Assembly (NCBI GenBank): GCA_026398275.1
Contig: JAPLTF010000087.1
Coordinates: 1 to 33,671, forward strand
DNA length: 33,671 nt
Source of the DNA: Verrucomicrobiota bacterium
GTDB taxonomy: Bacteria > Verrucomicrobiota > Verrucomicrobiia > Chthoniobacterales > Terrimicrobiaceae
Reading direction: 5' to 3'
Part shown: piece after piece, positions 20,753-26,967 of the stretch
How positions within the stretch are numbered: the stretch's first letter is position 1
Layout: every line of letters begins with the position of its first letter
Program-made: the position numbers and the translations under genes
The notes under the pieces: generated by a model
What the model was told of the DNA's origin: nothing
The model's input: only the letters and a program-made list of their open reading frames with translations
The model's database searches: none

Positions 20753-22600
<1,848 letters not shown>

Positions 22601-22735
22601 TCCCGAAACAGCAAAACTCCTCGTTGAACATCTGCTGGAGGGAATGCGGGGCATCGAATCCCGCGGGCTGGTGGCGGGCGGGGAGTTCCGCTTTCGCATC
22701 GCCGCTTTCCGCTCTGGATTGACTCTTTTCTCGAC

Positions 22736-22757
22736 ATGGTGTTCATTTGAACACCAT
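22736..22757. promoter_or_regulatory. LexA-type operator (SOS box) at the start of the polymerase fusion
   Basis: A 22-base palindrome with perfect 10-bp arms (ATGGTGTTCA/TGAACACCAT) around TT contains TGTTC-ATTT-GAACA (22740-22753). TGTTC-N4-GAACA is the LexA motif I recall for Verrucomicrobiota. It overlaps a likely promoter: TTGACT at 22719-22724, with the -10 position 17 bases on, inside the palindrome. It ends at the ATG (22756). Binding would block transcription until DNA damage. Confidence 0.8.
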
Positions 22758-25700
22758 GATCCTCCACCTCGATGCCGATGCGTTTTTTGCCTCTGTCGAG
22801 CAGGCGTCGGATGCGCGGCTGCGGAGGAAGCCGGTCGCGGTCGGAGGTTCGGCGCGGGGAGTGGTGGCGTCGGCTTCGTATGAGGCGCGGCGGTGCGGGA
22901 TCACGTCCGCGATGCCGGTGGCGCGGGCGCGGAGGCTTTGCCCGCAGCTGATCGTGATCCCGGGGGATTTTGAAAAATACGAGCACTTCTCGCGGATGAT
23001 GTTCAGCTACGCGTATGACTTCACGCCGTCGGTCGAGGTGGGATCGATTGACGAGGGATATGCGGACCTGGGGGGAAACAGAAAAAAACAACCCGAAGAC
23101 ATCGCGGCGGCGATCCGGCGGGCGGTGCGCGAGACGCTCCGGATCACGCTCTCGGGCGGGGTCGGTGCGAACAAGCTCGTCTCGCAGGTGGCCAGCAAGC
23201 TCCGCAAGCCGGATGCCCTGATCGCGGTCCCGCCCGGCACCGAGCGCGAATTCCTCGCGCCGCTCGACAACCACTGGCTCCCGGGCATCGGGCCCCAACT
23301 CGCCCGCACGCTCCGCGAGGCCGGGCTCCCGCGCATCACCGACATCGCCGCCACCCCGCCGGACCAGCTTTCGCTTTTCGCCGGAAAATCCGCCCGCGCC
23401 CTTTGGAATTTCGCCCACGGACGCGACGAGCGCCCGGTCGTGCCCGAGTCCCCGTCCGCCAAATCGTATTCCGAGCAGACGACGTTCGAGAGCGACATCA
23501 CCGACGAGGCCTGCGCGCTGGCGATCCTGCGCGGGATGGCGGACCGCCTGTTCGCCAAAGCCCGCGCGGAAGGCCAGACCGCCCGCACGATCACCGTCCG
23601 CATCCGCTACAACGACTTCGACGAATCCACCCGCAGCCAGAGCCTCGACGAGCCGACAGACCTCGAAACCCAGGTCTTCGGCCTGATCGCCGCGCTGCTC
23701 CGCAAAGCCTGGGAGCGCCGCGTCAGCCTCCGCCTCGTCTCGCTCAAGCTCGGCAACCTCTACAAGGCCTGCCTGTTTCAGGAACTCGATCTCTTCCCGT
23801 CCGCCCGGAACTCCACCGTCCTCCACCGCGCCGCCAACGCCGTGGATGCCATCCGCGAGCGCCACGGAAAGTCCGCCATCCTCCGCGGACACGACCTCTG
23901 GCTGCGCAGCCAGGACGGTCGACCACGCGAGACGCTGCGCGAGGAACCGCCGGAATACCTGAAGGAGCGCGGGCGTCCCGCCCGCATGGGTAAGGTTAGC
24001 GGGCAGGATGCCCGCGCTTCTGTGAGCAGCTCTCCGGTAGTTGCCTCCCCGGCTACACATTCGACTGGCAGGCACGAAGCGCTGGCGCGCGGGTGTTGTT
24101 TCTTGAACTTCCGCTCCTGCTACAGCTTCATGGATTCCCTGCTGACTCCGGAAAAAATCGTCATGCTGGCGGCGGATGCCGGATGCGAAGCTGTCGGGAT
24201 CTGCGACCCGAACCTCCATGCAGCGGTGCCGTTTTACCAGGCGGCGAAGGCGGCGGGGCTGCGTCCGCTCATCGGGGCCGAGCTGGCGGTTGCCGGGACG
24301 AAGCGCTGCGCCTATGCGCAAAATCAGACCGGCTACGCGAACCTCTGCCGCCTGCTCTCGGCAAAATCCATCACGAGCGATCTTTGGGAAACCCACCGCG
24401 ACGGGCTGACAATCGTGAGCGATCCGACTCCGCCGATCCGCATGGGAAGCCCGTCCGACGCCCGTGCGCTGCGGATCCTGCAAAGCATCCGGACGCTCAC
24501 GCTTTTCGACGAGGCGCATCCGGAGAAGACCGGCGGGGCGTCGTTCGCGGAGGCGCGGCCCTCCGGCGAAATCATCGAAAGCGATTTCGCGTTCGATTTC
24601 GAGACGCTCCGGTTTCCCCGTTTCGATCCGCCGGACGCCTGCACGCCGCAGGAATTTCTTTCGCGCCTCGCGCACGCCGGATTGAAGGATCGCTACCCCT
24701 CCGCCGACCACCGCGCCCAGCTCGAGACCGAGCTCGCGATCATTGCGGAGGTCGGCTACGCGGAATATTTTCTCACCGTCTGGGACCTGCTCCAGGGCTG
24801 CCGGCGCGCGGGGATCGGGTGGATCACGCGCGGCAGCGCGGCGGACTCGCTCGTCTGCTATTGCCTCGGGATCAGCGATGTCTGCCCGGTCCGGTTCGAG
24901 CTGTATTTCCAGCGGTTCCTGAACCGCGACCGGATGGCGCTGAACAAGCTGCCGGATATCGACGTGGACTTCCCTCACGACCGGAAAGACGAGGTCGTCG
25001 ACATGCTTTTTCGCAAGCACCCCCCCGGCCATGTCGCAGCGGTCGGCGGGTTCAACACCTTCCATGCCCGCTCCGCCCTGGCCGAAATCGCCAAGGTCCT
25101 CGGACTCTCCGACCACCAGGCCCGGCGGCTCACCGAACATCTGCCATTTGCCTCCGCCAGAAATGCGGAAGAAGCCGCCGGCGTGACCACCGCCGCCGCA
25201 GACGGACTCTTTGATGACGAGCCCGCGAAGTCCGCCCTGCGCCTTGCCGCCTTGCTCGACAGCCTGCCGCGCCACGCGAAGATCCATCCGTGCGGGATCG
25301 TCCTCTCCCGGCATCCGATCCACGAGCTCACCCCGACATTCTTGAGCAACAAAGGCCGGCCGGCCACCCACTTCGACATGGACGCCGTCGAGGAGGTCGG
25401 CCTCGTCAAACTCGACATCCTCGCCCAGGGCGGGCTCGCGGTCCTCCGCGATGCCACACAAACGCTCGCCGCACGCGGGCTCCCCGTGAACTTCGACAAT
25501 CGCGGCCCGTGGAACGACCCCGCCGTCTGGGACATCATCGCCACCGGCCGCGCACGGGGAGTCCACCACATCGAAAGCCCGGCCATGACCAGCCTCGAAA
25601 AAATGTGCGGATGCCGGGACATCGACACCCTCATCGCGATCGTGTCCGTCATCCGCCCGGGCGCCGCCAACACCCTGCGCAAGGAAACCTTCGCCCGCCG

Positions 25701-26967
25701 CGCCCTCGGCCTCGAACCGCCCGCGTTCCCCCACCCCTCGCTCGAACCCTGCCTCCGCACCACCCACGGGGTCATCGCCTACGAGGAGCACATCCTCCAA
25801 ATCGCCGACGCCTTCGCCAGCATGCCCGCCGGACGCGCGGATATCCTTCGCCGGGCATTGGTGAAGGTGCAGGATGCCAAAATCGAGGAAATGCGCGGCG
25901 AATTCTTCGGCTTCGCCCGCCGCCGCGGACGCACGGAGGAAGAAATCCGCGCCGTCTGGGAACTCGTCCACGGATTCCGCGGCTACGCCTTCTGCCGCGC
26001 CCACTCGACCGCCTACGCCCTCGAAGCCTGGCAGGCCGCCTGGATGAAGACCTACCACCCCGCCGATTTCATGGCCGCCATCCTCACCCACGGCAAGGGG
26101 TTCTACTCCCCGCTCGCCTACTCGCTCGAATGCCGCCTCCTCGGCATCGGATTCCTCCCGCCAGACGTCAACCGGCGGATGCCTGGCGGGACAACCTCGT
26201 TTCTTCCCGAAGGACCCAACGCCATCCGCGTCCCCGTCTCAGCCATCAAGGGGCTTTCAGAAAAACTGATCACCCTGCTGAAGGGAAAAAAATTCCCATT
26301 ATTCGCATCCATCGCTGACTTTGCTGATAAAACGAATTGCACAGAGTGTGACCTGCGGCTTTTACTGCATGCCGGAGCCTTTGATTCCCTTTGTTCGAGT
26401 CGGGCGGATGGAATATGGAAAATTCGTAAATATATTGTCCAAGGAATTCAAATGAAGCGATTTGATAAAACAAATTTCACTTCCGGATTGGTGGATGGAG
26501 CGGCGCTGTCCGGTCCCACTTATTCAAGGGCCGACACAGCGGTCGTCCCTCCAGTTCGGAAATGGATTTCGGCAGATGTTTTAAAAGACGAGATGGAGCT
26601 TCTCGGATTTACGGTTTCCGGGCATCCGTTGGAGCTCTGGCCGGATGTGCCATGGGAGACGTATTGTCCGATCCGCGAGATTGGTTCCCACGCCAACCGG
26701 CGAGTGACAATCTGCGGGCTCGTCATTGCCGACCGCTTCCACCAGCAGAGCGACGGGCAGGCGATGAAGTTCCTGAGCCTCTGCGACCACACCGGGATGC
26801 TCGAGACGGAGATGTTTGCGGACGCGTTCCGCCGGTTCGGTCTCGAAACCCTGCGCCATCCGGTCCTGGAAATCACCGGCACGGTCATCCCCTTCGAGGG
26901 AGACCGGGGGTTCTCCCTGCGGATCGAAGCCGTCCGCCGCCCGCGGCACCGCGCGGCTTTTTCCTGA
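22756..26967 (+). CDS. Fused DinB-like (Y-family) and DnaE2-like (C-family) error-prone DNA polymerases
   Basis: About 1403 residues from ATG 22756; TTG 22747 is less likely, and residue numbers here count from it. Residues 4-385 are a Y-family polymerase: LDADAFFASVE (D9), SIDEGYAD (D102, E103), helix-hairpin-helix LPGIGPQLARTL and a little-finger domain ending in a clamp-binding motif QELDLF (345-350). Unlike ImuB, the catalytic acids are present. Residues 386-450 are a linker. From about 452 a DnaE2-type polymerase runs to the end. It has a PHP domain whose metal-binding HxH is replaced (FLNFRSCYSF), PDIDVDF with D739/D741, and LVKLD with D890, so the polymerase triad is complete. Fingers and helix-hairpin-helix regions follow, then an OB fold (VTICGLVIADRF ... 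LEITGTVIPF). In many bacteria ImuA, ImuB and DnaE2 are separate SOS genes. No stop codon or strong internal start separates the modules. A leaderless mRNA is likely. Confidence 0.9.
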   Translation: MILHLDADAFFASVEQASDARLRRKPVAVGGSARGVVASASYEARRCGITSAMPVARARRLCPQLIVIPGDFEKYEHFSRMMFSYAYDFTPSVEVGSIDEGYADLGGNRKKQPEDIAAAIRRAVRETLRITLSGGVGANKLVSQVASKLRKPDALIAVPPGTEREFLAPLDNHWLPGIGPQLARTLREAGLPRITDIAATPPDQLSLFAGKSARALWNFAHGRDERPVVPESPSAKSYSEQTTFESDITDEACALAILRGMADRLFAKARAEGQTARTITVRIRYNDFDESTRSQSLDEPTDLETQVFGLIAALLRKAWERRVSLRLVSLKLGNLYKACLFQELDLFPSARNSTVLHRAANAVDAIRERHGKSAILRGHDLWLRSQDGRPRETLREEPPEYLKERGRPARMGKVSGQDARASVSSSPVVASPATHSTGRHEALARGCCFLNFRSCYSFMDSLLTPEKIVMLAADAGCEAVGICDPNLHAAVPFYQAAKAAGLRPLIGAELAVAGTKRCAYAQNQTGYANLCRLLSAKSITSDLWETHRDGLTIVSDPTPPIRMGSPSDARALRILQSIRTLTLFDEAHPEKTGGASFAEARPSGEIIESDFAFDFETLRFPRFDPPDACTPQEFLSRLAHAGLKDRYPSADHRAQLETELAIIAEVGYAEYFLTVWDLLQGCRRAGIGWITRGSAADSLVCYCLGISDVCPVRFELYFQRFLNRDRMALNKLPDIDVDFPHDRKDEVVDMLFRKHPPGHVAAVGGFNTFHARSALAEIAKVLGLSDHQARRLTEHLPFASARNAEEAAGVTTAAADGLFDDEPAKSALRLAALLDSLPRHAKIHPCGIVLSRHPIHELTPTFLSNKGRPATHFDMDAVEEVGLVKLDILAQGGLAVLRDATQTLAARGLPVNFDNRGPWNDPAVWDIIATGRARGVHHIESPAMTSLEKMCGCRDIDTLIAIVSVIRPGAANTLRKETFARRALGLEPPAFPHPSLEPCLRTTHGVIAYEEHILQIADAFASMPAGRADILRRALVKVQDAKIEEMRGEFFGFARRRGRTEEEIRAVWELVHGFRGYAFCRAHSTAYALEAWQAAWMKTYHPADFMAAILTHGKGFYSPLAYSLECRLLGIGFLPPDVNRRMPGGTTSFLPEGPNAIRVPVSAIKGLSEKLITLLKGKKFPLFASIADFADKTNCTECDLRLLLHAGAFDSLCSSRADGIWKIRKYIVQGIQMKRFDKTNFTSGLVDGAALSGPTYSRADTAVVPPVRKWISADVLKDEMELLGFTVSGHPLELWPDVPWETYCPIREIGSHANRRVTICGLVIADRFHQQSDGQAMKFLSLCDHTGMLETEMFADAFRRFGLETLRHPVLEITGTVIPFEGDRGFSLRIEAVRRPRHRAAFS
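23969..24015. repeat. REP-like double hairpin within the polymerase linker
   Basis: Two perfect 7-bp hairpins, GCGGGCG-TCC-CGCCCGC (23969-23985) and GCGGGCA-GGA-TGCCCGC (23999-24015), are separated by 13 bases. On the other strand the stretch reads as SAGILPANLTHAGGTPAL, a translation typical of a widespread intergenic repeat. Here it is in frame and encodes linker residues of about 409-423. Such repeats normally lie between genes. Confidence 0.65.

Follow-up and report, generated by a model that had tools for sequence, protein, structure and literature searches.

Organization of the Fused Polymerase Gene

The window analyzed here, a stretch of 33,671 nt from a Verrucomicrobiota bacterium (contig JAPLTF010000087.1 of assembly GCA_026398275.1), carries a gene in which a Y-family DNA polymerase (PolY) is followed, in the same reading frame, by a C-family DNA polymerase. 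The gene extends from an ATG at 22756 to a TGA and contains no internal stop codon in 22756-26967 (+). The features discussed below are the following:

22740..22753 (+): LexA box TGTTCATTTGAACA within the palindrome GGTGTTCATTTGAACACC, an exact match to TGTTC-N4-GAACA
22756..26967 (+): fused PolY-DnaE2B gene, 1403 aa (open frame, Pfam domains, 69 homologous fusions)
22756..23760 (+): Y-family polymerase half (IMS and IMS_C), residues 1-335, with D6, D8, D99, E100 and the steric gate F11 (Pfam, alignment, AlphaFold2)
23779..23796 (+): clamp-binding-like motif QELDLF, residues 342-347 (canonical in one of 69 proteins, L-x-L position kept)
23830..23892 (+): RecA-NT-like helix and tail, residues ~359-379, ANAVDAIRERHGKSAILRGHD (conservation, RecA alignment, model)
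23935..24084 (+): disordered linker, residues 394-443, ~50 residues (pLDDT <50, dN/dS)
23963..24021 (strandless): REP-like inverted repeat in the linker (GCGGGC...GCCCGC), 87% complementary (inverted-repeat search)
24109..24375 (+): PHP domain with degenerate metal site, residues 452-540 (Pfam, ligand comparison)
24655..25923 (+): C-family palm and fingers, residues 634-1056 (Pfam, alignment, C-half model)
24961-24963, 24967-24969 and 25414-25416 (+): codons of the catalytic aspartates D736, D738 and D887 (each Asp in 69 of 69 proteins)
26143..26934 (+): HhH region (residues 1130-1217) and OB fold (1317-1393) (Pfam)
26480..26583 (+): 104-bp interspersed repeat, in frame, residues ~1242-1276 (translated match, DNA alignment)

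Pfam assigns IMS (residues 5-148) and IMS_C (236-335) to the N-terminal part; these are the only domains before the PHP domain, and an ImuB-C domain is absent. The C-terminal part comprises PHP (452-540), DNA_pol3_alpha (634-890), DNA_pol3_finger (895-1056) and HHH_6 (1130-1217), followed by the OB fold as a sub-threshold match. The gene encodes a full Y-family polymerase and then a full C-family polymerase that lacks the C-terminal region of DnaE1. Searches against solved structures relate the first part to DinB-type polymerases (best match 7yll) and the second to Pol III alpha subunits. The open frame, the Pfam domains and the 69 homologous fusions described below bear out the first-pass annotation of this DNA, which had reported a stop-free frame leading from a complete Y-family polymerase into a C-family polymerase. 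The catalytic residues that it named were right; its numbers, counted from an in-frame TTG at 22747 upstream of the ATG, are three higher than those used here, which are counted from the ATG at 22756.

AlphaFold2 was run on two separate parts of the protein, residues 1-640 and the C half. In the model of residues 1-640, the Y half is predicted with a pLDDT mostly above 90 (~95 in the Y core) and is followed by a helix (348-370), a short helix, the disordered segment 394-443 and a folded PHP domain; the pTM of this model is low (0.49), so that the placement of its two parts relative to each other is not fixed. The best structural neighbors of the Y-half model are polymerases of the DinB/Dpo4 type. 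The C-half model (pTM 0.85) matches the Pol III alpha subunits of Thermus, E. coli and M. tuberculosis. An open frame of 1188 aa also lies antisense to the gene (window 22525-26091, -) and is probably a by-product of GC-rich codon usage.

Linker and In-Frame Repeats

The linker varies widely in length and sequence across relatives, and the frame is nonetheless open in all 69 proteins; neither a cleavage site nor a start site was found to be conserved in it across the fusions. The core of the REP-like repeat occurs 17 times in the window's genome with at most one mismatch. The 104-bp repeat was found by translated match at seven further places in the same genome, four of which were aligned and showed 84-89% DNA identity, and the C-half model is disordered at residues 1235-1266, which overlap this repeat.

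In-frame repeats or low-complexity sequences recur at the same few loops in several lineages, namely at window positions 23963-24021 and 26480-26583 and, in the relatives L071, L074, L089 and L115, at residues ~538, 914 and 1152. Inteins were considered for the latter three positions in long relatives and rejected on inspection, as the inserted sequences resemble repeats or low-complexity stretches rather than Hint domains. In Rickettsia, palindromic elements are inserted into reading frames, and the repeats of the fusion genes are reminiscent of them.

Active Sites and Selection

The first-pass annotation had regarded both active sites as intact, which holds for the window protein and for the entire family save one D99E-type change. 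Among the 69 proteins, D6, D8 and E100 of the Y half are each invariant and D99 is found in 68, the remaining protein having a glutamate; the steric gate is F in 66 and Y in three. In the C half, the three catalytic aspartates are present without exception. The dN/dS ratios of the 25 closest pairs range from 0.03 to 0.21 in the Y half, mostly below 0.1, and from 0.04 to 0.23 in the C half, the Y half usually being under tighter constraint. In most of these pairs, the linker has a higher ratio than the folded halves. These values indicate strong purifying selection on both halves and weak selection on the linker.

The metal site of the PHP domain had also been described as degenerate, and the alignment agrees, D484 and E509 alone being generally retained among the ligand positions that DnaE1 conserves. 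The predicted PHP proofreading site is lost and the PHP domain is degenerate in the same manner as in DnaE2.

Distribution of the Fusion

Both halves were found in one frame in 69 distinct proteins from independent genomes, drawn from a one-genome-per-species scan (80 loci) and from loci of the window's relatives. The record titles of the 80 scan loci are nearly all verrucomicrobial. Identity of the relatives to the window protein is about 52-78% in the Y half and 44-64% in the C half. Among the carriers are a cultured type strain, Brevifollis gellanilyticus (L044), and a single-cell genome (L100), besides metagenome-assembled genomes (MAGs) of Prosthecobacter, Pedosphaera, Limisphaera, Spartobacteria and a Puniceicoccaceae bacterium. 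An even sampling of the phylum gave 5 positives among 388 genomes at a strict and insensitive cut-off, the window's genome included, which indicates that the gene is patchy rather than universal. None of the phage records covers 80% of the fusion protein, and no relative was found among viral contigs.

Several individual records deserve mention. A Prosthecobacter MAG (L061; G440, contigs C9, C34 and C126) carries three different fused copies, and two copies occur in some other genomes (L072/L080, L043/L083). The public MAG entries behind L066, L051, L055, L087 and L099 bear the names Klebsiella pneumoniae or Akkermansia muciniphila; they contain the verrucomicrobial fusion gene and are probably mislabelled. 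In L085 (8001-10922) and L114, homology to the fusion ends near residue 914; in L085, the missing third is absent from the 8 kb of contig beyond this end.

The window is one contig of a 117-contig assembly and its linker contains a repeat, a setting in which an assembly or frameshift artefact might have joined two neighboring genes. However, dozens of independent assemblies share the fusion, including those of the type strain and the single cell, the frame is open across the linker repeat of the window, and relatives with different linkers are fused as well. At the level of the family, the artefact reading is already refuted, and we consider it highly improbable altogether. It had been asked whether the two parts are always separate genes in relatives; instead, relatives are mostly fused, and a few are unfused or secondarily split.

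SOS Control and Upstream Genes

The LexA box TGTTCATTTGAACA starts 16 nt and ends 2 nt before the ATG of the fusion gene. Its sequence and place are identical in six fusion loci, those of the window and its five nearest relatives, and the genome's own lexA gene, coding for a LexA-like protein of 207 aa, has GTGTTCACATGGACAC directly before its start. The LexA motif of Verrucomicrobia is reportedly TGTTC-N4-GAACA. The exact box occurs at five sites genome-wide versus two for a reversed-pattern control; the box alone is thus a weak indication, and the case for SOS control rests on position and conservation. By sequence pattern, an S24 (LexA- or UmuD-like) gene lies directly upstream in 54 of the 69 fusion loci, and an exact LexA box was located near the S24 gene start in 19 of these 54. 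Taken together, the box before the start in six loci, its counterpart at lexA and the upstream S24 genes agree with the annotation as an SOS gene, and predicted SOS control of the fusion is well supported.

A single universal LexA motif was considered and rejected, the exact box being present upstream of the fusion in only seven of 69 loci. Upstream of a few fusions (L051, L054, L065), a GGACA-N5-TGTCC-like palindrome was observed, perhaps reflecting a second LexA specificity; it resembles GGA-N5-TCC, the SOS motif of Bacteroidetes (PMC8565304).

The upstream S24 proteins are of two kinds, with two of each examined by Pfam. The long ones are LexA proteins with a DNA-binding domain. Those of the Verrucomicrobiaceae comprise ~150-165 aa, consist of S24 alone and are UmuD-like; the stop codon of their gene lies directly at the start codon of the fusion. 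In three Verrucomicrobiaceae-type genomes searched, a LexA-type DNA-binding domain was found elsewhere in the genome. In L044, L045, L069, L072 and others, an exact LexA box is located close to the start of the UmuD-like gene coupled to the fusion. The fusion gene of the window has no UmuD-like neighbor, and the S24 genes of its genome are located on other contigs.

Clamp Motif and RecA-NT-Like Tail

A single clamp-binding motif between the two halves had been proposed for the window protein. QELDLF is indeed present there, and its canonical form is unique to this protein among the 69; most other fusions exhibit [ST]EL[PA]LE at that site. In about half of the fusions (39 of 69), the region of the C half between HhH and OB loosely matches a Q-x-x-L-[LF]-like motif, in some instances by chance; examples are QGWLL, QGYLF and QGLLF. 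The corresponding place is occupied by QVSLF in the genome's own DnaE1, by QMLF in the DnaE of Emticicia and, in the window protein, by the 104-bp repeat. In the alignment, the position of the putative clamp motif differs among the fusions.

The little finger is followed by a segment similar to the RecA-NT motif that a passage of PMC6511836 describes in PolYs. Conserved in the 69-protein alignment are D364, [LI]366, R/K367, [IVL]375, R377 and G378. The tail aligns without gaps with the N-terminus of the organism's RecA, ALQQIEKDYGSEAIRRLGD, A-x-x-I-R-x-x-x-G-x-x-A-I-x-R in the tail facing A-x-x-I-E-x-x-x-G-x-x-A-I-x-R in RecA. Profile-profile alignment recovered the expected register, and 3 of 100 shuffled controls scored above the true pair, which places it in about the top 4%; an HMM built from the Y tail did not match the N-terminus of the organism's RecA. 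Identification of the tail as a RecA-NT motif is only suggestive.

Origin of the Fusion

The C halves of 20 sampled fusions were placed in a midpoint-rooted maximum-likelihood tree, where they group as a single clade (support 100). The unfused verrucomicrobial sequences of G035 and G061 branch next to them, followed by a group that comprises the dinB-dnaE neighbors of Emticicia, Chryseobacterium and Persicobacter together with a Desulfosarcina pair. The clustering of fusion C halves with the dinB-linked DnaE of Bacteroidota received SH-aLRT values of 97-100 in this tree, which is our own and not the DnaE2B tree of PMC12926913, whereas DnaE1 falls elsewhere, as do the DnaE2 proteins of cassettes of the ImuB type. 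The NCBIfam model of error-prone DnaE2 scores the window protein at 444 bits against a cut-off of 939. The comparison with ImuB and DnaE2 drawn by the first-pass annotation is not borne out by this placement of the C half outside the ImuB-linked DnaE2 clade, which points to a pair of active PolY and DnaE2B as the parent. The dinB gene of Emticicia overlaps dnaE by one base, an arrangement in which loss of a stop codon would nearly suffice to generate a fusion.

Unfused arrangements exist within the phylum. In G035, lexA-polY and a PHP-less DnaE are located on different contigs, and G046 has lexA-polY without DnaE. The locus of the latter (L161; 1848-4143 and 821-1786, - strand) consists of a row of lexA, a stand-alone PolY of the same clade and a gene for a FEN-like 5'-3' exonuclease. 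In L091 (3086-6815), a DnaE half that falls within the fusion clade has no PolY upstream, which likely reflects later loss of the Y half. The Y tree does not recover the fusions alone as a supported clade, the stand-alone PolYs of G035 and G046 being placed among them on weak branches. Both trees divide the fusions alike into a Limisphaerales-type and a Verrucomicrobiales/Spartobacteria-type group, as expected if the halves were inherited together.

Proposed Mechanism and Alternative Explanations

We regard it as rather probable that the gene encodes an SOS-induced single-chain translesion polymerase, a fused DnaE2B-PolY(-RecA) mutasome that would have arisen in Verrucomicrobiota from neighboring lexA, polY and dnaE2 genes. 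By analogy with the families involved, DNA damage would activate RecA and trigger LexA self-cleavage, leading to expression of the fusion gene. The Y half would insert opposite the lesion, and the RecA-NT-like tail, which directly follows the little finger, would dock on RecA and thereby license the enzyme. The linker would then let the distorted primer end pass to the DnaE half, which lacks the proofreading site, for extension with no new recruitment, while the clamp would be held through a motif whose place varies by lineage. In Verrucomicrobiaceae, the UmuD-like S24 protein encoded directly upstream probably serves the enzyme, in the manner of Pol V, as an extra activator or subunit. Intramolecular hand-off between the two polymerases is what we infer from these analogies. 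In its most explicit form, the proposal is of a natural one-chain mutasome under SOS control, with both polymerases active, a flexible tether and a RecA-docking tail, in which the Y inserter and the C extender act within one molecule and the UmuD-like partner of the Verrucomicrobiaceae would turn it into a hybrid between the Pol V and DnaE2 systems; we advance this tentatively, as a serious possibility.

Alternatively, the fusion might serve ordinary gap filling or stoichiometry control, its two sites acting on different substrates without any hand-off from inserter to extender. Tethering at 1:1 could be useful in this way, and split relatives do exist, several lineages managing with split or single parts (G035, G046, G061, L091). 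However, the link to SOS and the loss of the PHP proofreading site speak for lesion bypass, and we consider this explanation unlikely. We assign a somewhat smaller probability to the Y half being mainly a recruiting scaffold that, like ImuB, provides clamp and RecA contacts for lesion synthesis by the DnaE half. ImuB and DnaE2 are thought to work in this manner (PMC12926913), and the candidate interaction motifs are located in the Y tail. Unlike in ImuB, the catalytic residues and the steric gate of the Y half are kept in the 69 proteins save for one D-to-E change, and this half is usually the more constrained one; strong constraint on its catalytic residues would not be expected of a mere ImuB-like scaffold.

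Slightly less probable again is a fusion at the level of the gene only, in which cleavage of the linker or an internal start giving a separate DnaE2 would yield two working proteins as in Bacteroidota. The disorder and weak constraint of the linker, the two-protein state of the Bacteroidota relatives and the LexA/UmuD-type peptidases encoded next door in most loci are in line with such processing, but a conserved site for it was not seen in the variable linkers, across which the frame nonetheless stays open.

Polymerase switching at lesions, from inserter to extender, is an open question, and complexes of DnaE2B and PolY have so far been predictions. In the single-chain translesion polymerase favored here, two different error-prone polymerases that other bacteria make as two proteins have been tied 1:1 by evolution, and the first enzyme could pass damaged DNA straight to the second. 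The fusion supports the partnership of PolY and DnaE2B independently of structure prediction. As one polypeptide, it can be expressed, either side can be made catalytically dead and the hand-off is testable.

Comparison With Known Systems

A survey of the polymerases of 3,070 genomes proposed 11 module types, including a predicted DnaE2B-PolY-RecA module with separate subunits in which PolY is already active (PMC12926913). A PolY-DnaE fusion is not mentioned in the main text of that study or in the available passages of PMC6511836, PMC3919608 and PMC3765255, and no paper on such a fusion was found in the literature searched, in keeping with the earlier suggestion that it is undescribed.

The C half shares its fold and catalytic Asp triad with DnaE1, the replicative Pol III alpha subunit, but is only ~30% identical to it, has a degenerate PHP domain and belongs to a separate clade, and the genome has its own DnaE1. 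Similarity to Pol V (UmuD'2-UmuC-RecA) is seen in the UmuD-like S24 gene that precedes the fusion in Verrucomicrobiaceae, as umuD precedes umuC, whereas UmuC has no C-family polymerase attached. With ImuA-ImuB-DnaE2, the fusion has in common the combination of a Y-family and a DnaE2-type polymerase under SOS control. In that system, however, ImuB is separate and catalytically dead and ImuA is required, while the PolY of the fusion keeps its active site and the C half falls outside the ImuB-associated DnaE2 (DnaE2A) clade. No ImuA or ImuB was found in the window's genome, where the searches gave one RecA-family match and, besides the fusion, one solo DinB. The closest counterpart is the DnaE2B-PolY-RecA module of Bacteroidota (PMC12926913; Emticicia L143, Chryseobacterium L144), which likewise shows an active PolY with a candidate clamp motif and a putative RecA-NT-like tail and a C-family partner of the same clade, encoded by adjacent genes beside a regulator. 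It differs in consisting of two proteins instead of one chain and is only ~26-36% identical. The best reading of these comparisons is that the fusion would represent a single-chain form of the predicted DnaE2B-PolY-RecA mutasome rather than of ImuA-ImuB-DnaE2.
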